The notes beneath the pieces are model-generated. The model searched no databases, was not told the origin of the DNA, and saw only the letters and a list, made by a program, of their open reading frames with translations. Position numbers and translations under genes: made by a program. DNA of 64,000 nt from Hysterangium stoloniferum. Taxonomy: Eukaryota; Basidiomycota; Agaricomycetes; Hysterangiales; Hysterangiaceae. How positions within the stretch are numbered: position 1 is the stretch's first letter; each line of letters starts with the position of its first letter. Below, in pieces: positions 11,605-28,584 of this stretch. The stretch spans positions 248,001-312,000 of the forward strand of contig WHVD01000082.1 of NCBI GenBank assembly GCA_015178975.1, read 5' to 3'.

Positions 11605-11815
11605 CTCTCAATTCCTGTAGCACCACCCGTGTCGCAATGACTGTCAGTGCGTCAGTGTCCAGGCAACCCAGATCATGAGTTAAGTTGTGGGCAGCTGCTT
11701 TGTGCTGCTGGATGTCATATTCCATGGCAACCTCCCAGCTGTGTGACTTCGTAATGGTGGTCACGATGGAATGATGTGCCATGAGTGCCTCAGCCCTAGT
11801 GTCACCACTATATGT
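11605..11815 (-). pseudogene. Gag upstream part of Ngaro-like element
   Basis: The frame includes AEALMAHHSIVTTITKSHSW and ATRVVLQELR and ends at the LTR at 11604. After removing the nested element and one TSD copy, the next codon continues without a stop at 5332 into the zinc knuckle frame. That is the main evidence that this block belongs to the Ngaro-like element and not to the gypsy integrase to its right. The junction with the gypsy fragment is only approximate (11810-11830). Confidence 0.6.
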
Positions 11816-11819
11816 CTGT

Positions 11820-12639
11820 CATCCTGTCGCTCATTTGTGAACACCCGTATGTATTGCTCTAGTTCCATGTTGAGACGTTCTGTCTGTCCATCTGTCTGAG
11901 GATGATAGGCAGTAGAGGAGGCTATCTTGATGCCAAGCAAGCGGTAGAGTTCCTTGGTGAATTCCACCACAAACTGTGAGCCCTGGTCAGAAACCACCTT
12001 CATTGGCAAACCATGTAATTTCCAGACATGCTGTAGGAAAAGACATGCTGCACCTGCTGCTGACAATGTGGTCATGGTAGGGATGAAGTGTGCCCGTTTC
12101 GAGAGTGAGTCAACCACATTCATAATTGCATCAAAACTATGGGCCTCTGGCAGTTCCGTAATGAAGTCCACATTGATTACTTCCCAGCATTGACTGGGGA
12201 TTGGCAATGGATGCAGCTGACCCATAGGTTTATGCCGGATGGTCTTGGTCTGCAAGCACACATCACAAGTCTTGGCATAGAGTCCTACATGTCTGGACAT
12301 TTGGGGCCACCAGTAATTCCTGGAAATGAGTTCTAAAGTCTTCCACCTGCCTGGGTGGCCTGTTACCTTGGTATCGTGATGTTGGGCCATAATGCGGCGG
12401 CAGAGATCCAAGTGGTCTGGAACATATACCTTACCACAAAACAGGAGTAGGCCCTCTGATTCTGACCACTCTGAGGACTGTATAGACCTGCTTCTAGTCT
12501 TGCACATCGCTTGAATGGCATTCGCCACTGCATCTTCTGGGGTTGACTCCTTCAAGCCTTTCCGGACATCCTTCAGGATGTCCCATTCTTCACCATAAAC
12601 CTCCACCCCTTCTAATGCTCGAATAACAAACAATTCTGG
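11820..12639 (-). pseudogene. Gypsy integrase, C-terminally truncated
   Basis: The HHCC zinc finger is visible (MAQHHDTKVTGHPGRWKTLE, then CDVCLQTK). The catalytic core shows Asp in VINVDFITELP, Asp in KVVSDQGSQF, and Glu in TDGQTERLNMELEQYIRVF. The frame becomes unrelated after FTNERQDD near 11825, where it meets the Ngaro gag remnant. It was part of one polyprotein with the RT/RNase H, separated only by the TGA at 12640-12642. Confidence 0.88.
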
Positions 12640-13868
12640 TCAGAGGAGTACCCTATCCTTGTTGTCTTCTGCACCAGAACCATGGTCAGCACGTTTGGAT
12701 AGAGCATCTGATTTTCCCATAGAGGCTCCCGGACGATGATGCATCTCAAAGTCAAACCGTGCCAAATAAAGTGACCATCTGGCTTGCCTCCGGTTCAACT
12801 TCTTGGATGTGTGAAAGTATTCCAGGTTCTTATGGTCTGTCCAGATCTCGAACTTATGCTCAGCACCTTCTACAAAGTGATGCCACTCTTCCAGTGCCCA
12901 GATGATAGCCAGCATCTCCTTATCATGAATGTCATCATTGTGTTCCACCTCATTGAGGCTTTTGGAGTAGAATGCAATGGGATGCCACTTGCCATCCTCC
13001 TGTGACTGCTGAGACAGTACTGCCCCCATGGCAAAGTCTGAACTGTCAGCCTCAATATGGTATGGAAGGTCATCTTTTGCAAAGGCAAGAACTGGTGCTG
13101 AAGTCACCAGATGCTTGAGAGTGTGGAAGGCACTCACTTCCTCTTTGTCCCACTTCCATGGCTGATCCTTTTTGGTGAGATTAAACAAGGGATGCGCATG
13201 GTGGGAGAAGTCCTTGATGAAGTGTCGGTAGAAGTTGGCAATCCCTAGGAAGGATTGTACTTCCTTATGGCTACCTGGGGTTGGCCATTCTGCTACACCA
13301 GTCACTTTGATCGGATCCATCTCCATCTGACCCTCTGAAATAATGAGTCCCAAATACTCAATCTTGGTCTTCTCAAATTCACACTTCTCTGGCCTGAGAT
13401 AGAGTTTATGCTGGCGTAGCCATTGCATGACTAGATGTGACACACGGTAGTGCTCTTGCAGTGTTTTGGTGAATATCAAAATGTCATCCAGATAAATGAC
13501 CACTACACCCTCCATGATGAGGTCATGGAAAATGTCATTCATCATTGTCTGGAAGGTGGAGGGGCTATTGGTGAGTCCAAAAAACATAACAAGGGGTTCA
13601 AACAATCCCCGGTTGGTGCGAAAGGCTGCTTTCCATTCATCCCCTTTCTTTATCCTTACATTGTTATAGCCCCATCGTACATCTAATTTGGTGAAATAGT
13701 GAGCTCCACATAGCTGATTGATAAGGTCAGAGATCAAAGGAAGAGGGTATCAGTTTTTGATAGTGACAGCATTGAGAACACGATAGTCCTGTACTAAATG
13801 AAGGGACCCATCCTTTTTCTTAATAAAGAAAACTGGGGAAGCCATGGGTGACTTTGAGGGTCGGATAC
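12640..13868 (-). pseudogene. Gypsy reverse transcriptase and RNase H
   Basis: Starting at 13868 the frame reads [20 protein letters not shown] and [13 protein letters not shown]. An in-frame TGA follows at 13750-13752, where the family has Arg. It continues with FTKLDVRWGYNNVRIKKGDE, MFFGLTNSPSTFQ and the active site VIYLDDILIF. RNase H follows with EADSSDFAMGAVLSQ, NDIHDKEMLAIIWALEEW and WTDHKNLEYF. It ends at a second TGA (12640-12642), again at an expected Arg, after which the integrase continues in the same frame. Apart from these two stops the frame is intact for about 400 residues. Confidence 0.88.
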
Positions 13869-14423
13869 TGTTACGACCCGTTCACGGATGTTTCAATATC
13901 CGACTTCCGATCTCCCACTTTGACCTCCGACTACGGAACATCATAGTTACCGTATCATCCGCGTTCTTCGTTTGTTCCGCATTTGGTAATTTGTCCGTTG
14001 ACAAGTATTCACTCGTTTGTTGTTGTATTCCCGTCTCGGAATATTGTCTTCCTAATATGTCTTATTGTATTTCCGTTTTAAGAATACTTCCGTTTCCGTC
14101 TTATTATGGTCTCAGTTTGTAGTACAATAACGAGTAGACTTATATTAGTTTCCGCGAATTTGTACTTTACTTTAGATCTGATATCGACTTAGTTTCTTAT
14201 TCCTCCTCCCGTCTTTCTGTACGCTCGATATTCGGAACTCTTCGGAACTCTGAATATCCATATCTTCCGTCGTTAGTTCACTTCCGAAATTAAGGACATT
14301 GAGCGTTTGCGTAGAGGCGCAGCACATAAGCTGAAGCCGACGTCCTGACCCTATCCACGAGTTTCCGACTTCCCGGTGACTTCCCGATAGTTCCAGAATA
14401 AGTTCCCGACATGGCACTTAACA
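13869..14423 (+). repeat. 5' LTR of chromovirus A
   Basis: 555 bp, TGTTACGACC to ACTTAACA. The predicted transcript start is AGATCTGATAT at 14174-14184, inferred because those 11 nt pair exactly with the PBS at 14426-14436. The U5 part contains the box shared with families B and F (AGCACATAAGCTGAAGCC, about 14320-14337). Confidence 0.9.
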
Positions 14424-14457: not shown

Positions 14458-15684
14458 ATGGGTCCCAAACGCAAAGCTGCCGAAGGACCATCCCAACTTC
14501 AATCCCCGTTGCAACTTTACACCACCCAACCCGAAACCCCAATTCAGCCGACAACATCAGCTTCAATCGAAGAAGTTACCGAGGAGGTTACCGAGGTAAC
14601 GAAGGATCCCAATGATCCCCATACTTCCGACAACGAAGCAGAAGATCAGCCAGAGACATCGAAAAAGAAATCTCCCGACGAACCGACTGAAATGTTGTTT
14701 ATCAACTCCATTGTGAAATTCGCTGACTATTTGAAATCCGCTGAGGATAGCAAAGAATCATCCCACACCGGAGTCAAAGAACCCGAACCATTTACCGGCA
14801 AGGATCCGAAAAAATTGAAGAATTTCCTTCTTCAATGCCGTTTCAGTTTCCGTGATCGACCCAATGCTTTTAAATCCGACAGTCGAAAAGTCAATTTTGC
14901 GCTATCATATCTCAAGGATACCGCTCAGGATTGGTTCGAACCCGGACTATCCGGAATATCCAACGAGACACCCGTATGGCTCGACGACTGGGATGCTTTC
15001 ATGGAAGAACTGGAAACTAATTTCGGACCTTACGATCAATCCGGCAAAGCAGAAAACGAACTAATGACGCTCAAGATGAAGGACAATCAACGAGTTTCCG
15101 ATTATCTCGTCAAGTTCAATACCCTCGCCACACGATGTGGATGGGACGATTCCGCCCTCAGGCACCATTTCTATATGGGACTTCCGTCACGCCTTAAAGA
15201 CGAAATCTGCAAAGATGGAAAGCCAAAAACTCTCCAACTCATGCGGATGAAAGCTCAAACATCCGATGCCCGTTATTGGGAACGAAAAGCCGAGGTCTCT
15301 CGAGAGAACCCGACGGAACGTTCTCAGAACAACAAGGCATCGACTAGCAAGTCTTCCGGCAACAACTCAGGCAATAATACCGGCTCTGGCACTAATACTG
15401 GCAAATCAAATTCCGACCGGAAGAAAGACAAGAAATCCAACAAGGAAAAACAGTCAACTTCCGACAAACCCGACATTTCCCATTTGTTGGGTACCGACGG
15501 TAAACTCACCCTGAAGGAGAAACAACGACGTATGGACAACGACCTCTGCCTTTTCTGCGGGAAAGGCGGACACAAGGTTTCCGACTGTACCGTTAAATCC
15601 AGCTCTTCCAAGGCTCGCACGGCAACTTCCACTACGACTACGACGTCTAAGGAAAACCCCGCCACGGAGTCAAAAAAAGAGTAA
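14458..15684 (+). CDS. gag: Gag of chromovirus A
   Basis: 408 residues from the first ATG after the PBS, intact. The N-terminal 95 residues are acidic and disordered. The Retrotrans_gag-type capsid region is at about residues 100-285 (EPFTGKDPKKLKNFLLQCRF, LKDTAQDWFEPGL, LMTLKMKDNQRVSDYLVKFN). A basic Ser/Asn-rich linker leads to one CCHC knuckle at about residues 365-378 (CLFCGKGGHKVSDC). Gag forms the virus-like particle and binds RNA. The stop TAA (15682-15684) lies inside the frameshift signal leading to pol. Confidence 0.93.
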   Translation: MGPKRKAAEGPSQLQSPLQLYTTQPETPIQPTTSASIEEVTEEVTEVTKDPNDPHTSDNEAEDQPETSKKKSPDEPTEMLFINSIVKFADYLKSAEDSKESSHTGVKEPEPFTGKDPKKLKNFLLQCRFSFRDRPNAFKSDSRKVNFALSYLKDTAQDWFEPGLSGISNETPVWLDDWDAFMEELETNFGPYDQSGKAENELMTLKMKDNQRVSDYLVKFNTLATRCGWDDSALRHHFYMGLPSRLKDEICKDGKPKTLQLMRMKAQTSDARYWERKAEVSRENPTERSQNNKASTSKSSGNNSGNNTGSGTNTGKSNSDRKKDKKSNKEKQSTSDKPDISHLLGTDGKLTLKEKQRRMDNDLCLFCGKGGHKVSDCTVKSSSSKARTATSTTTTTSKENPATESKKE

Positions 15685-15719: not shown

Positions 15720-18700
15720 GTTGACTCTCTCCGTGTTTCCGAGGTTGTCCGTCTCAACGCGTCCGCTCTCTCTAATCCCAATTCATTATTTGTAAAACTC
15801 GTCTCTGACTTTCTTGGAAATTTAGTGTTCCGAGCTCTAATAGATTCCGGCTCCACACACTGTTTTGTAGATACCACCTTTGCCACGAAACATAATCTGA
15901 AACTCCATTCTGTTCCCGCAATTTCCTTGCGTTTGTTTGACGGCACTAGCAATACGGCAATTACTCAAGCCTGCGACATGTCTATCCGGTTCCCTTGTGG
16001 AACATCCCAGATGGTTACATTTTTCGTAACACAGTTGGACTCTAGCTGTTCGGCAGTTCTTGGATACAACTGGCTCACCCGATATAATCTGTTGATTGAC
16101 TGGGTATTGGGCAGTATTACTTTCCGGACTCCCGACACTTCCGTTCCTCCTGCAGCGTCTTTTCCGGCCAACGCCTTTTCGGCATCAACGGCATCTCCGG
16201 CTTCTATCGAAACTTCCGAGCCCCCAAAAATCTCTCTCATCAATGCTTCGGCATTTGTTAGGGTGAGTAAACTGGATGGCTCACAATGTTTTTCGATCAG
16301 CTTAAAAGTTGATGAAGCATCTGGACGTTTTGCAACTCCAGAATTATCCGAGCTAAAAGCCGATCTGGAAGGAGTTCCCGAAAAATACCATGATTTCGCG
16401 GACATTTTCAGTAAGCAAAAAGCTGACAGGCTTGCACCACATAGGCCCTACGACTTAAAAATCGATATTGAGCCCGGTTCAAACCCTCCATTAGGACCTA
16501 TTTACCCATTATCCCAATCGGAACTTTCGTCTATTCGGGAGTTCCTGGATGAACATCTGTCGATAGGTTTTATCCATCCCTCAAAGTCTCCGTATGGAGC
16601 ACCCGTCCTTTTTGTCCGAAAGAAGGACGGCTCTCTTCGACTCTGTGTTGATTTCAGAGGGTTAAATTCCATCACACGGAAAGATAAGTATCCACTCCCA
16701 CTCGTTACCGACTTACTCGACGCCCCACGGAAAGCTCGAATTTACACCAAAATAGATCTCAAACATGCCTATCATTTGGTCCAAATTGCCGAGGGCGACG
16801 AATGGAAAACTGCTTTTCGGACTCGCTATGGATCCTTTGAATGGTTGGTTATGCCGTTCGGCCTTACCAACGCCCCTTCCGCTTTTCAACGTTTTGTTAA
16901 TGATATATTTTCCGACATGCTTGACGTATGTGTTATAGTCTATTTGGACGACATTTTGGTATTTTCCGAGGACCCCGCTCTTCACGATGAACAGGTCCGT
17001 GAAGTCTTCCGAAGACTCCGTAAAAACGGTCTTTTCGCCAACGGTAAAAAATGTTATTTCAACATGGATTCTATTGAATACTTAGGTTTCATCATCGGCC
17101 CTGATGGTCTCCGTATGGATGAAACCAAGGTTCAATTGTCCGTGACTGGCCCGAACCACGGAAGGTCAAGGACATTCAATCATTTTTAGGTTTTGCCAAC
17201 TTTTACCGTCGTTTTATTCGGAACTACTCGGATATTACAGTACCGCTCACTTGTCTTACCCGTAAAACTCAACCATGGGTTTTTGACGACAAATGCCGCT
17301 CCGCCTTCCAGACTTTAAAAAATGCTTTCACTTCTGCCCCGATTCTTTCCCATTGGAAACCTGATTTTCCGATTATTGTGGAAACCGATGCTTCCGATTA
17401 TGCAATTGCCGCGATTCTTTCCATTCAAGAGTCTGACGGTGAAATTCATCCGGTCGCATTTCTTTCTCGGACACTTTCAGTATCCGAACTCAATTACGAC
17501 GTCCATGATAAGGAACGTTTGGCAATTTCTGAGGCTTTCAAACATTGGCGCCATTATCTTGAAGGTTCCGCAACTCCCGTTGACGTCATTACCGATCACA
17601 AAAATCTCGAATATTTTTCTACCACTAAACTTTTAACCCGCCGGCAGGCCCGTTGGTCTGAATTTCTTTCTGCTTTCAACATGATTATCCGTTTCCGACC
17701 CGGACGTCTTGGTGGAAAACCAGATGCCATGACTCGACGATGGGACGTCTATCCTAAAGAGGGGGAAAGTAACTACGCTGTTGTTAATCCACATAACCTG
17801 AAACCGGTTTTTACAATGCAACAACTTTCCGCATCTATCCGAGCAACTTCCCTTTACTATCCAATTATGCGTAGCGTCATGATTATGGACACTGAGCAAT
17901 TACATCAAGATATCCTTTCCGCACTCACTTCCGACCCGGCCCTCAAGCCACATTTAGAAGTTCCCGACAATCCCGACCAACCCCGATGGTCACAAGACTC
18001 TCAAGGTTTTATCCGTCTCGATGGACGTATCTACGTTCCAGATTCCAACAATCTCCGACTCCGCGTACTTCAGTATAAACACGATCATCCAATCTCCGGA
18101 CATTATGGCATCAACAATACTCTTGGTTTAATCCGTAGAGAATATACTTGGCCCAACCTCCGAGATTTCGTAACTCAGTTCTGTAAGTCATGCACCACCT
18201 GCTTACACTCCAAAACCCAGAGGCATAAGCTGTACGGCCTTCTCAAAGCAACTCCCGATACCAGAAAAACCTTGGAATTCAATTTCCATGGATTTTATCG
18301 AACAACTCCCAACTTCCGAAGGCTTTACATCCATTCTAGTTGTTGTGGACCGATTCTCGAAACAAGGCATTTTCATACCCACTCATGATACAATCACGTC
18401 CTTACAATTAGCGGAACTTTTCATTATTCACGTATTTTCCAAACACGGAGTTCCATCTCACGTAACTTCCGATCGAGGCTCCAAGTTCGTCTCCTCATTT
18501 CTTCCAGGCCCTCGGAAAAGCCCTCGACATGAAACTACACTTCACCTTCGGGATATCACCCGGAAGGTGATGGACAAACGGAACGTGTTAATCAAACATT
18601 GGAACAATATCTCCGCATCTATTGTAATTATCAACAGGACAACTGGAAATCCCTTCTTCCGATCGCGGAATTCACCTACAATAACTCTCCGAATGCAACC

Positions 18701-19373
18701 ACCGGCATATCTCCCTTTCTTCGCCAATAAAGGCTATAATCCGAATCTCACAGTACATTCCGAACGAGATTTGGCTTCTGTCCGTGCTCAAGAATTTATT
18801 ACTGACCTCGACGAATTACATCAAGAACTTCGGAAAGCTATTTCTTCCGCACAGGAACATTATCAACGTTCCGCGGACAAAAACAGGATCCCGCCTCCTA
18901 ATTTTAAAGTTGGTGATCAGGTTTTTGTAAAAGCTCAATTCTTCCATACTACCCGACCTTCTAAAAAACTCGCTGAGAAATTCTTAGGACCTTTCGAAAT
19001 TATAGCACAAGCTGGTTCACTTTCATGGACTCTCCGTCTTCCCGACAGTATGTGAGCAGTCCACCCCGTTTTCCACGTTTCCATGTTAGAACCTTGTGTT
19101 CCTAACTCATTCCCGGAACGTATTCAACCTCCGTCCCCTCCGGTCATCATTGATGGAGAACCCGAATTCGAAGTTTCCGAAATATTGGATTCTAAAATCG
19201 ACAATCGCCGACGTACTTGTAAATTGCTCTATTTAGTTAAATGGGCAGGTTATGAAGGTACCGACGAGGAAACTTCATGGATATTGGCCACGGAACTTGG
19301 ACATGCTATGGAAATTGTTACTGACTTCCACACGGCTTATCCAGGCAAACCCGGACCTTTATCATCACTCTAA
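15678..19373 (+). pseudogene. pol: Pol of chromovirus A: protease, RT, RNase H, integrase, chromodomain
   Basis: Protease: FRALIDSGSTHCFVD near 15828. RT: RKKDGSLRLCVDFRGLNSIT, AYHLVQIAEGDEWKTAF, MPFGLTNAPSAFQ and IVYLDDILVF. RNase H: VETDASDYAIAAILS, NYDVHDKERLAI and VITDHKNLEYFST. Integrase: zinc finger CKSCTTCLHSKTQ, core Asp in SISMDFIEQLP (shifted frame), Asp in VTSDRGSKFVSS, Glu after [13 protein letters not shown] (shifted frame). A chromodomain ends the protein at 19140-19360 (FEVSEILDSKI, LYLVKWAGYEGTDEETSW). Damage: one-base indels near 17136, 18265, 18510, 18560 and 18715, and a TGA at 19053-19055 at an expected Arg. The chromodomain should direct integration to marked chromatin. 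Confidence 0.9.
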
Positions 19374-19458: not shown

Positions 19459-20592
19459 CTATCTCAAAGTCTCTGACACCCCAAATCCGCCTTCCACTTC
19501 ATCTCCTGCAACCTCCGCACTTTCCACCATATCCTGTACCTCCTCATCTTCACTCTCCTCTTTTCCCGACCCCCATCTCCGCTCCACACACTCCGCCAAT
19601 GGATCGTTTGGCTGGTTTTTCGCCTTATCGGCAAATCGTTCGGATACCGCGATTACACCGATACTAACCATCATCTTCTCCAGGAAATCGTTTTGCCTCT
19701 GGAAATTCTGGACCAACGAACGGAAACCCTTCTCCTGGATCTCATTATGGCGATCCAGTGTTTCCCGCATTTTCCGCATCTCAACCCCGATGAAGACCAT
19801 TGTATCGACCAATTCCTTAAGGAGCTCAACACCCATACCATCCGTACTCGGCACCTTAGTTTCCGCAGTTTTGGTCACTCCTGAACCTTCCGCGATGGTA
19901 GGTTTTTGAGCCTTTTCGCTTTTCGGAACCCTTTTCGCAGCAAGAGTGCACGGAAGTTTGAGGACCGCGCAAGGATAACAAGTTCCACCCCATTTTACCT
20001 TCTGTTTCCAACAAGTTATATCCTGTACGGAACATCGAGCACATGGAGTGTCATGGGCAATTTCCATCCGTTCCGGAGCCTTGACCTTTTGTTTCTGTTT
20101 CGAAAGATTAGTCAATTACCGACCTTTTGTAGATGCACTTACTTTAGGACTCGAAGGCCCAGCTTCTCCCTCTACTTCCACCTCCACAGCTTTTCGCTGT
20201 ACGCAACAGTTATCGGTTGGAACCACGGAAATCTATGGAATCGGACTCACCTTTCCTTCCCTTACCTCCTTATGTTTTTCCGCCGCCTCAGCTTCTTGTT
20301 GTTTCTTCACTTCTTCTTCCTTCAACCTCCGATCCTCCATCACTTTCCGCAACCTCGCCAACTCTTTTTCTTTTTCCGCCTTCGCCCGCTCCAATTCCCG
20401 CTTTTCCGCCTCCTCCGCATCCTTCAACTCCTTCATCAACGCTCTTTCCTCCTCCTCCTGTCATCGCTTCAACTCCTCCATTTTCTGGGGTTTTTGTTGA
20501 AGTTCTGCGACCTTCGACATCTTTTGAAGTACGGATATTTCGGTATCTGAGTCTTCCAGGGTAGTGATGAATAACGGCCGACGAATCGACAT
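19459..20592 (-). CDS. Antisense spliced gene in the 3' region of chromovirus A
   Basis: It is convergent with pol, its stop 85 bp from the pol stop. Start ATG at 20592-20590. Two GT-AG introns are inferred: 20250-20197 (54 bp, GTGAGT...ACAG) and 20142-20095 (48 bp, GTAAGT...CTAAT...ACAG). Both remove in-frame stops and keep the frame. The 343-residue product has an N-terminal Lys/Glu-rich coiled coil (MKELKDAEEAEKRELERAKA and on), then a Cys-rich motif (CARCSVQDITC, CYPCAVLKLPC) with a KWGGTC core, a second helical region (ELLKELVDTMVFIGVEMRKM), and an acidic tail (GKEESEDEEVQDMVE). One TGA remains at 20463-20461 after AAG CGA, fitting CGA-to-TGA. The motif looks zinc-binding; function is unknown. 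Confidence 0.72.
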
Positions 20593-20776
20593 ACAAGTCG
20601 TGGATAAAGAAACAAAAATGTTAATTTGAATATTTGGAGGTTTTTATACTCAGAATAATAACTGAAACTCTCACCTCCATAATTGCGTAAATTTCATGAC
20701 ACATAACAGTCAGCCGTCGCTTCAAACACTCAGTACCTAATCGCCTCTATGGGATTTCGGCCTAACAGGGGGGTAC

Positions 20777-21339
20777 TGTTACGACCCATTCCTGGATGTT
20801 TCAATATCTGACTTCCGATCTTCCACTTTCGATATCCGATATCCGACTACGGAACATCATAGTTACCGTATCATCCGCGTTCTTCGTTTGTTCCGCATTT
20901 GGTAATTTGTCCGTTGACAAGTATTCACTCGTTTGTTGTTGTATTCCCGTCTCGGAATATTGTCTTCCTAATATGTCTTATTGTATTTCCGTTTTAAGAA
21001 TACTTCCGTTTCCGTCTTATTATGGTCTCAGTTTGTAGTACAATAACGAGTAGACTTATATTAGTTTCCGCAAATTTGTACTTTACTTTAGATCTGATAT
21101 CGACTTAGTTTCTTATTCCTCCTCCCGTCTTTCTGTACGCTCGATATTCGGAACTCTTCGGAACTCTGAATATCCATATCTTCCGTCGTTAGTTCACTTC
21201 CAAAATTAAGGACATTGAGCGTTTGCGTAGAGGTGCAGCACATAAGCTGAAGCCGACGTCCTGACCCTATCCACGAGTTTCCGACTTCCCGGTGACTTCC
21301 CGATAGTTCCGGAATAAGTTCCCGACACGGCACTTAACA
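20777..21339 (+). repeat. 3' LTR of chromovirus A
   Basis: 563 bp, TGTTACGACC to CACTTAACA, preceded by a G-rich polypurine tract. It matches the 5' LTR almost base for base from about 20850 on. The first 70 bp differ (several C/T changes and an extra GATATCCGATATCC block). Confidence 0.9.
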
Positions 21340-21684
21340 CCGCCCCGCAGCATAGCAAGGGTTTCTAAGCTTGTCATATAAGTTAATTCACATCAGTGGG
21401 TCTGTGGGCACTGCTTAGTCACTAATTGGTCAGCATTAGGTCAGCATCTGCGAGCGAAGCGAGCCTTGGCTTTCCCACACCCACAATCACACACGTTGTC
21501 ACATGTTGCCAGGCATGACACGCCATTCAATGCGCATTCATGACATAATGTGCTCGGTTGCTGACGCCATTCATGTGCTTCATTCCATGCACGACGTGCC
21601 ACCTCACTCACGTTGTGTGACCGGGCGCATTACGTCACAGATGTGCACCCCACATGCACACGAATGGGCGCATTGCATTTGCAC

Positions 21685-26020: not shown

Positions 26021-28584
26021 TAAAGCTCATACAGATCCAAGGTGATACAACATTCCAACAGGGGATGAGTTGGCAGTCATTCTCCCAAGGGATGGTACTT
26101 CTACTGATAGAAGAGACATTGTGCTTAATTATCAGGGTGGAGGATTTAGAAGAATCTTTGAAACTAATCCTTTGTATGCTCCACTCCATTATGTACTATT
26201 CTTTCCAAGAGGAGAGTGAGGCTGGAGCTGGGACATTCCCTATGCAAATGAACCACTCCCTGCTGAGATAGTCCCAGCCCCAGCAGCTATTGAGGAGATT
26301 GCTCCAGAGCCAGAAGTTCTTGAGCCAGCTCCTGAGGAGATAATACCTGACTTTCCAGAGGTAGTGATTCCTCAACCTGAAGTAGTTCCCCAAGTTGTAC
26401 CTCTCCCACCTGAACAAATAGATATTCCAGTTGATGATGCTATACCACCTCCTGAACCAGCTATGGAGCAGGATGAGGTGCAAGGAATTACTGAAGAACT
26501 TGAACCTGAACAAGTGACAGAGAATAGGCAGAAGAAAAAGCAGACAAAAGTCTCCCAGATAAAGTATTATGCTTATCGACTCTTTCAAAGAATTGGTGAA
26601 GCAACTACAATTCTGAGAGGTGGAAAACTGCTTCAGCAATACATTGTAGATGCATGGGCAGCAGCAGAGCAAAGCAGGCTATCATGGATAAGACACAATC
26701 AAGGCACTTTATGAGCTGAAATGTACCATCAGGTGGTTGATGCCTTCACAGTACAGGATAATAACCAGCAACCTGAGCCAAATGAAATTGGAAGTAGATT
26801 TATACTGCCAGCAACCTTTCAAGGTAGCAGTCAGGATATGATGGAAAATTTGCAAAATTCACTGGCTATATCATGCAAATATGGCAATGCAAGCATGTTT
26901 ATTACTATGACAGCCAACCCCAAATGGAGAGAAATAACTGAAGCACTTCTTCCAGGGCAAACTGCTGCAATCGCCCAGATATAGTGTCACGTGTTTTTGC
27001 ATTGAAAAAGGCATACTTGCTTCAGCTCATTATGAAGAAAAATTACCTTGGCAAAACAGTTGCCCGTGTCCATACCATTGAATTTCAGAAGTGTGGTCTC
27101 CCTCATATGCATTTGCTCATATGGTTTGAAGAGGGGGCAAAGCTTCGGACTCCTGCAGAAGTTGATTCTATGATATCTGCAGAGTTTCCAGATCAAGAGC
27201 AGGAACCCAGGCTTTACAAGTTGGTATCTGAGCTCATGACTCATGTATGTGGTGAAAAATGTATCAAAGATAACAAATGTACAAAGCATTTTCCCAAGCC
27301 CTTTCGTGAATCTACAAGTATAAATGAAGATGGCTATTCAAAGTACTGCCGTAGAAATGATGGCAGAAAACATAAAGTCAGAGGTCATGAGCTAGACAAT
27401 CGACATGTTGTCCCTTACTGTGCTGCCCTTCTTCTCATTCTGGAATGTCATGAGATGACTTTTAATGTTCACTCCATTAAATATATTCACAAGTATATAT
27501 ACAAAGGACATGATTGTACAACAATGGAGTTTGGAAAGAACAAGGATGAAATTCAACAATATATTGATGCCCGCTATGTCAGTGCACATGAAGCATTTTG
27601 GAGACTTTTGGAAAATGAGATACATACTCAAATTCCTGCTGTCATAGCCCTCCCTGTGCATTTAGAGAATCACCAGTCAGTTATCTTTGATGGCATGGAG
27701 GGTCCAGAAGAAGCTTTGGATGCTGCCCATCGTTCCAAGACTAAGTTGATGGCATACTTTGAGGCCAATTCTAACAATACAATAGGCCTTAATGGTAGAA
27801 CAGCCAATTCACTTCACTATGTTGATTTTCCAGAATTTTTTACATGGAATTCAAAAAACAGAAAATGGAATACAAGGAAAGGGGATTTGCCATTGGACGT
27901 ATTCATTTTCCAGGACCCTCAAGTGGCCCAAGGTTCTTCCCACGTACTTTACTCACAGTTGTCAAGGGGGCAACTTCTTTTGAAGATCTCAGGACCTATG
28001 AAGGACAGGTCTATCCTTCCTTCCAAGCAGCCTGCATGGCACGTGGTCTACTTGAAGATGATAAAGAATGGAAGTTGTGTCTTCAAGAGGCAAAGGCTAT
28101 GCAGACTGGATCTCAATTGAGGAGACTGTTTGCTACTATTCTCAGCCAATGCTTTCCTTCTGATCCAGCTGCACTCTGGCATGAATTCAAAGCAGACATT
28201 TGTGATGACTTGAAACACTTTCTTCAGACACATCTTAATGAGCCAAATCCATCTCCTGAGACAGTCCATGACTTTGGCCTCTTTAAGCTTGATGAAATTC
28301 TTCGTACAAGTGGGAAACCACTCTCAGAGTACCCTCATATGCCTCAATATACACAGCCATGGGAAAACAGAGTAGCAAATCGATTCATCAATGAACAGAG
28401 GGCTTATGACAAGGATACTGAGCAAATAAAAGCAAATATAAATATTGAAGAAAAGTTAAATGAGGGCCAAAGTGTTGCATACAATCAAATTATGGCTGTT
28501 GTCATTGCAAGACATGAAACTGGAGTAGATGGAAAGCTTTTCTTTTTAAATGGACCTGGAGGTACTGGAAAATCATTTGTTTGA
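26021..28584 (+). pseudogene. Helitron protein, Rep domain and start of helicase
   Basis: After the Tc1 insertion the same frame continues with the N domain (YNIPTGDELAVILPRDGTST, RRDIVLNYQGGGFRRIFETN). It passes TGA stops at 26043-26045 and 26217-26219, then an acidic Pro-rich insertion (26280-26500). The Rep region shows MFITMTANPKWREI, the HUH motif GLPHMHLLIWF at about 27095, and the two-tyrosine motif YIHKYIYKGHD at about 27485. Helicase motif I is NGPGGTGKSFV at about 28550. Further damage: TGA at 26712-26714, a frameshift near 26970, another near 27850, and TGA at 28582-28584. Rep nicks and joins DNA in rolling-circle transposition. Confidence 0.88.

Follow-up and report, generated by a model that had tools for sequence, protein, structure and literature searches.

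Antisense Gene Inside a Hysterangium Chromovirus

The window analyzed here is a stretch of 64,000 nucleotides on contig C536 of the 111-Mb genome assembly of Hysterangium stoloniferum (Agaricomycetes, Phallomycetidae). This window contains a Ty3 chromovirus with an additional gene on the minus strand (19459..20592). The gene is located between the stop codon of the chromodomain (19371-19373) and the 3' long terminal repeat (LTR), antisense to pol and without overlap with it. From ATG to stop, it comprises 343 codons once spliced. Exon 1 (20251..20592, 342 bp) encodes the N-terminus and a helix rich in Glu, Lys, and Arg. Exon 2 (20143..20196, 54 bp, 18 codons) encodes part of a stretch resembling a nuclear localization signal (NLS), and exon 3 (19459..20094, 636 bp) encodes a Cys cluster, a long helix, and an acidic tail. 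The exons are separated by intron 1 (20197..20250, 54 bp, GTGAGT..CAG) and intron 2 (20095..20142, 48 bp, GTAAGT..CAG), both on the minus strand. The lengths of all three exons are multiples of three, and the unspliced reading contains one in-frame stop per intron. A first-pass annotation of this DNA had proposed the gene, its place in the element, and both introns, which remove stops and keep the frame; all of these were confirmed at the positions given above. The proposed length of 343 codons holds for the spliced gene, but the annotation overlooked an in-frame TGA at codon 44 (20463-20461). Because of this stop, the window copy is dead.

Copies of the Gene in the Genome

A search of the genome with the DNA of the antisense gene resulted in 357 candidate places, the best 40 of which were scored. 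All 40 are full-length and 83-100% identical. The ATG, the GT and AG ends of both introns, and the terminal TAG were found in each of these closest copies, and the frame is free of premature stops and frameshifts in 25 of them, including L033. A protein search with exon 3 resulted in 944 candidate places; among the best 150, which are 69-100% identical, the matched stretch is stop-free in 115. After addition of distant copies, 49 distinct copies were available in total. Two of these were excluded from the counts of TATA boxes and from the ratios of non-synonymous to synonymous substitutions (dN/dS), leaving 47 copies: L073, in which exon 1 is frameshifted and the start region is lost, and L077, whose exon 1 could not be aligned. 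L077 alone was excluded from the intron counts, leaving 48 copies. Part of exon 1 is read in a shifted frame in L033 and L076, yielding a different sequence. Of the 23 premature stops in 43 gene copies, 20 fall at positions with CGN as the majority codon, a pattern suggestive of CpG methylation in these repeats.

Introns and Splicing

The exon-intron structure of the gene was demonstrated by comparison of the copies. Intron 1 begins with GT in all 48 copies and ends with AG in 47 of them; both GT and AG of intron 2 were found in all 48. The length of intron 1 is 54 bp in 41 copies, 53 bp in 4, and 52 bp in 3, and that of intron 2 is 48 bp in 44 copies and 47 bp in 4. By eye, the acceptor of intron 2 is preceded by a CTAAT- or TTTAAC-like box. 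In-frame stops inside introns 1 and 2 were detected by a script in 42 and 43 of the 48 copies, respectively, with the test for intron 1 skipping copies with a shifted exon 1.

The length of an intron is not divisible by three in seven copies. The exons are mutually in frame in six of the seven, and these six contain 1-3 premature stops if spliced vs. 6-26 if unspliced. One of the six, L076, is read in a shifted frame where exon 1 begins and has no stop at the usual place. The seventh is the broken copy L073. Intron removal is the simplest reading of a frame kept despite such introns.

No processed copy contiguous across the three exons was found with a 114-nt exon-only query among the best 40 of 209 candidates. 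This fits an element copied through sense RNA, and the antisense introns persist as the first-pass annotation had expected of them. One near-match on contig C13 (L083) was considered as an intron loss through retrocopying of the antisense mRNA and rejected, its 38-bp gap not being a splice product. The gap runs from the last part of intron 2 into the start of exon 3 and, by eye, is bordered by short repeats.

Selection on the Gene Frame

The dN/dS values were calculated by the Nei-Gojobori method for 1081 pairs from the 47 copies in six distance bins; the pairs overlap and share history, so that these values are summaries rather than independent tests. From the nearest to the most distant bin, the values for the gene frame are 0.37, 0.38, 0.29, 0.27, 0.23, and 0.23. 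The first-pass annotation had named dN/dS among copies as a check, and the range of 0.23-0.38 does not correspond to neutral evolution. In four of the five other frames, dN/dS starts at 0.59-0.77 (nearest bin) and reaches 0.86-1.53 in the last three bins. The remaining frame, sense+1, mirrors the third positions of the gene, and its values are 0.49, 0.52, 0.39, 0.32, 0.30, and 0.32. The gene frame is below this frame in all six bins.

As a control, the 3' end of pol was analyzed in 40 loci, with L033 matching only part of the stretch. There, dN/dS falls from 0.36 to 0.21 in the coding frame and is 0.65-1.1 in the two other sense frames. Therefore, with its change from 0.37 to 0.23, the antisense gene is by this measure constrained much like pol. 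For distant pairs, dN/dS per segment is lowest in the acidic tail (0.12) and goes up to 0.28; a linker at residues 184-225 is looser (0.54). Differences from the majority codon include 67 synonymous changes, 115 non-synonymous changes, and 6 stops among singletons, and 189, 225, and 8, respectively, among shared variants. With 217 synonymous and 815 non-synonymous sites available, both groups show constraint, which is slightly stronger in the shared variants. Comparison of the copies reveals selection at the protein level.

Candidate Antisense Promoter

A TATA box of the antisense gene is located at 20641..20648 on the minus strand, with its first base 56 nt upstream of the ATG. The sequence GAGTATAAAA, with TATA 55-57 nt upstream of the ATG, was found in all 47 copies. 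In the most distant bin, divergence of the 60 bp preceding the ATG is 0.076, vs. 0.169 for the next 90 bp and 0.68 for synonymous sites. In the far relative L084, the TATA (at 55 nt), the ATG, and two short GT/AG introns recur, and a chromodomain is adjacent on the opposite strand. Identity between L084 and L068 is 49% in exon 3 and 58% in exon 1. Another locus, L085, has degraded exons and an altered TATA, and no acceptor of intron 1 was seen in it.

Encoded Protein

The predicted protein of about 345 residues includes a charged N-terminal helix, an NLS-like stretch, a six-Cys cluster, a long helix, and an acidic tail. The Cys cluster and the acidic tail were also named in the first-pass annotation, together with an N-terminal coiled coil. 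The charged helical N-terminus is present, but residues 21-112 consist of 28% E, 16% K, 14% R, and 20% hydrophobic residues, and with this composition the region may form a single charged helix and not a genuine coiled coil. The NLS-like stretch, KRK...PKK.K, is assembled from exons 1-3.

The Cys cluster (19948..20043, minus strand) has the spacing C-x2-C-x6-C-x10-C-x2-C-x6-C, which fits the Gal4-type Zn2Cys6 consensus. The spacing is thus like that of the fungal Zn(2)-Cys(6) proteins (PF00172), but here the cluster is found mid-protein, after a long charged helix. All six Cys are kept in 11 of the 12 aligned members and in the database protein P0122, where the spacing is the same.

Two structure models were built, one for exon 3 alone and one with two relatives. 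Both are of low confidence except for the long helix, which has a predicted local distance difference test (pLDDT) score of about 90 at exon-3 residues 91-140. In a sequence search of the Protein Data Bank (PDB), the window exon had no match below E 0.06, and the exon-3 alignment matched a designed helical repeat protein with E 0.0044. No TRP28 domain (PF04195) appeared in Pfam searches with the full spliced L026 protein (E up to 1) and with the 12 exon-3 members (E up to 10). DUF3744 matched the full L026 protein with E 0.33. A match to DUF5380 (E 0.0037), found in one of the 12 members, was regarded as noise.

Residence in the Element and Apparent Exchange of Gene Variants

Comparison of the copies also demonstrates that the gene resides in the element. 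Chromodomain matches were used for this purpose, with the first 100 of 150 examined and their positions copied by hand. At least 81 of these 100 matches are followed, after 84-184 bp, by exon 3 of the antisense gene, and in 79 of the 81 the distance is 84-110 bp. Among the other 19, at least five also have gene pieces nearby (C57:1381, C522:185147, C257:119654, C99:133187, and C26:107244). Four of the 19 were inspected: L079, L081, and L082 have internal deletions of the gene, and in L080 the gene is full-length but frameshifted. Amplified gene-less subfamilies were considered and rejected, the deletion junctions of L079 and L081 each matching at full length only their own place among 40 scored places. 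As is characteristic of the antisense genes called aORFs-3R in plant elements, the gene is, by these counts, present in most copies of the family and conserved like gag-pol.

Distances between copies in the gene and in pol correlate (r 0.70; reached in none of 2000 permutations). Mean divergence is 9.1% for the gene vs. 3.5% for pol. Of 209 pairs with pol ends less than 2% apart, 30 differ by more than 10% in the gene, and all of the six most extreme discordant pairs include L031. Because near-identical pol ends carry such different genes, gene variants seem to have been exchanged between lineages of the element. Two distinct sequence types of intron 2 exist among the copies, which likewise points to an exchange of modules.

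Relatives and Distribution

A full spliced protein had no match at E 1e-3 in the protein database, with a search that reaches relatives sharing exact words only. Comparison of the 12-protein exon-3 alignment with 5.8 billion proteins resulted in three matches at E up to 1: P0121, P0122, and P0123. P0121 and P0123 are both named Hysterangium stoloniferum. P0122 is 37-39% identical to the window exon and keeps the Cys spacing, the motif CWKQ..(K/R)WGG(T/S)CYPCAV.K.PC, and the block EK.MVSIGVIAV; the protein is therefore not confined to the copies of this genome. No relatives were found in scans of IMG/VR with the window exon, the alignment A4, and P0122, or in one scan of prokaryote genome contigs. 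Because the protein database contains basidiomycete element proteins, such as reverse transcriptases (RTs) of Trametes, Armillaria, and Pleurotus, so few matches probably mean that the antisense gene is rare or that its introns hide it, and not that it has gone unsampled.

P0121 is encoded in the genome of the window (100% identity over 146 of 146 residues). At its locus, L086 (C2:1251900-1254200), exon 3 follows the end of integrase in the same orientation; this rearranged copy had been annotated as a hypothetical protein. P0123 combines a piece of the antisense protein with a stretch 88% identical to a Helitron-like open reading frame (ORF) of the window (26984-28584), where ORFs resembling a Helitron helicase were identified by eye. 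The best genome places for P0123 are found side by side on contig C113, pointing to a nested or captured piece.

Carrier Element in the Window

The carrier has the composition of a Ty3 chromovirus, with gag, protease, RT, RNase H, integrase, and chromodomain following in this order between two LTRs. All of its features listed here are on the plus strand. The 5' LTR (13869..14423, TG..CA) shares a 300-nt exact core with the 3' LTR (20777..21339, its ends read directly); 548 of 569 columns in their alignment are identical (96%), with the columns taking in a few flanking bases. The gag gene (14458..15684) matches the Pfam families Retrotrans_gag (2.4e-14) and Ty3_capsid (8e-8), and its CCHC knuckle is weak (zf-CCHC_5, 0.0055, under the Pfam cutoff). 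The region of pol for protease, RT, RNase H, and integrase (15825..19055) is split into several open pieces in the window copy and matches RVT_1 (3.6e-37), RT_RNaseH (4.5e-33), Integrase_H2C2 (1.9e-17), and rve (1.1e-6, slightly under the cutoff). It is followed by the C-terminus of integrase with the chromodomain and the stop codon (19101..19373; Chromo, 2.2e-7). A purine run adjoining the 3' LTR (20767..20773), read directly from the sequence, is a possible polypurine tract.

The five bases flanking the LTRs (13864-13868 and 21340-21344) are unlike each other, without a target-site duplication, and because of this the window element may be a product of inter-element recombination. Minus-strand pol fragments of a second Ty3-like element, with ORFs identified by eye, adjoin the 5' LTR (11761-13868).

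Antisense Genes in Known Elements

Antisense accessory genes are already known in plant and fungal elements. The fungal case is the brtn gene of the Boty-like elements in Botrytis cinerea (Zhao et al., 2011, via PMC7264820, PMC8365987, PMC4227169). The host of Boty is an ascomycete, in contrast to the basidiomycete studied here, and the two genes are likened by description, not by sequence. The plant aORFs-3R include gene23 of maize Grande and the genes of rice RIRE2, PvRetro13, and Retand, the last with the TRP28 domain (PMC7264820; PMC11963269). As described there, gene23 is driven by a promoter of its own and its product is nuclear; the Hysterangium gene has a TATA candidate and an NLS-like stretch only. 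The TRP28 domain of Retand is predicted to bind DNA (PMC7264820; PMC11963269), whereas the Hysterangium protein has no match to it. The word "intron" is absent from the main text of both these sources, in contrast to the two conserved introns of the Hysterangium gene.

The best functional parallel, by analogy, is HBZ of human T-cell leukemia virus type 1 (HTLV-1). Like the antisense genes of other deltaretroviruses, HBZ is described as lying antisense at the 3' end; its transcripts are spliced, and its product is a nuclear regulator (PMC10186651). The position is alike, and a similar role of the Hysterangium gene would be by analogy. HBZ is expressed from the 3' LTR and encodes a basic leucine zipper (bZIP) protein (PMC10186651), whereas the Hysterangium gene has an internal TATA and encodes a Cys cluster instead. 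The likeness would be convergent at best.

No basidiomycete antisense gene of this type was seen among the best-placed titles and abstract openings listed from open-access literature. Within these listings and the papers cited above, the combination of two comparatively demanded introns, selection measured beside pol, a Zn2Cys6-like cluster, and a basidiomycete host is apparently undescribed.

Proposed Role and Alternatives

We have little doubt that the antisense gene is a genuine spliced gene under selection, given the agreement among its copies. For its role, the following mechanism is proposed. The gene would be transcribed toward pol from its own TATA, located between the gene and the 3' LTR. 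The host would splice the antisense transcript twice, and the product of about 345 residues would enter the nucleus and bind DNA, with the long helix as a possible dimerization element. It would then act in trans on the LTR or promoter of the element, tuning transcription of gag-pol in a way that is HBZ-like in logic. The introns would be retained because the sense genomic RNA, and not the antisense mRNA, is reverse transcribed. We put the chances of this regulatory mechanism at about even. The complete statement, namely an accessory gene borne by a large Ty3 chromovirus family, with its own antisense promoter, spliced and encoding a nuclear DNA-binding regulator, could equally well prove right or wrong.

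Several observations weigh against the proposed regulator. Of the 40 closest copies, 15 are broken, including the window copy. The first Cys is lost in one old copy, L071. Zn_clus (PF00172) is the Pfam family touched by most members, yet below threshold: it was matched by 4 of the 12 members with a best E of 2.4 (8.8 bits for L068 vs. a cutoff of 21), and the window copy and P0122 had no match to it. With the Pfam score so far below the cutoff, the cluster fits Zn2Cys6 by spacing and is not assigned to PF00172. In the models, pLDDT of the Cys region averages about 32-53 per ten residues, and a Foldseek search with the first model gave a single, non-significant match (E 8.6). In the Cys segment, dN/dS is 0.92 for the nearest pairs vs. 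0.17-0.19 for more distant ones, and the former value speaks against strict constraint on this segment after insertion. Finally, elements with a deleted gene and 99-100% identical chromodomains exist, so the gene would be either not strictly needed in cis or acting in trans. Trans action would explain the continued rise of such deletion copies.

It is rather unlikely that the antisense protein counters host silencing, either RNA interference or DNA methylation of repeats, instead of regulating its own promoter. The NLS-like stretch and the acidic tail would suit a silencing antagonist, the predominance of premature stops at CGN codons (20 of 23) would be expected if the repeats are CpG-methylated, and transcription toward pol could yield double-stranded RNA. 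However, no significant match to Pfam families or PDB sequences points to such a role.

Handling of the element RNA by the protein (export, packaging, or translation control), similar to Rev or to CERV of Cer1, is a little less likely still. The RNAs for Rev and CERV are sense transcripts whose splice sites are shared with the genomic RNA, and no need of this type is evident here. Moreover, spacing of the Cys is closer to that of a DNA-binding cluster than to that of a CCHC knuckle. On the other side, CERV of the Caenorhabditis elegans element Cer1 is described as nuclear, produced from a spliced mRNA, and needed for export of the genomic RNA (PMC10309623), and Rev is named as a retroviral accessory factor (PMC7264820).

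An origin as a captured host gene that the element carries along as a passenger, or as a second element nested in the first, seems improbable. A gene with introns and its own promoter resembles a host gene, and introns would survive if such a gene were captured in reverse orientation. Against such an origin, at least 81 of 100 elements have the gene at a distance of 84-184 bp from the chromodomain, its divergence follows that of pol (r 0.70), and the two are under about the same constraint. No search was aimed at an unlinked host homologue, and scoring of the best 150 places would leave one hidden.

We give still less weight to the antisense RNA itself being the active product, through double-stranded RNA or transcriptional interference, with the protein secondary. 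Regulation of LTR elements by antisense transcripts is discussed in the literature (PMC7264820), and conservation is stricter in the 60 bp before the ATG than in the 90 bp further upstream. Nevertheless, selection acts at the protein level (dN/dS 0.23-0.38), amino acids are conserved as far as P0122, and the exon frame survives intron indels. Lastly, a chance or mirror frame with chance splice signals, for which the stop in the window copy and the low dN/dS of the sense+1 frame (0.30-0.52) could be cited, is ruled out for practical purposes by the lower dN/dS of the gene frame in all six bins, the splice sites, the TATA, and the pattern of intron indels.

Significance for Retroelement Biology

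Whether retroelements encode their own antisense regulators, and whether such genes can carry introns, is a long-standing question. The Hysterangium family makes this question testable. Across tens of copies in one genome, selection on the antisense ORF is about as strong as that on the 3' end of pol, and the comparison of copies requires that both introns be removed. The candidate promoter, the introns, the Cys cluster, and natural deletion variants are all mapped in a defined family. Tentatively, and with somewhat less confidence than in the regulatory mechanism as such, we suggest that basidiomycete chromoviruses have independently evolved HBZ-like control, in which an antisense intron-bearing gene with its own promoter encodes a Zn2Cys6-type regulator that acts in trans on all elements of the population. 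In that case, antisense orientation would be what permits a retroelement to retain a regulatory gene with introns, however often it is reverse transcribed.
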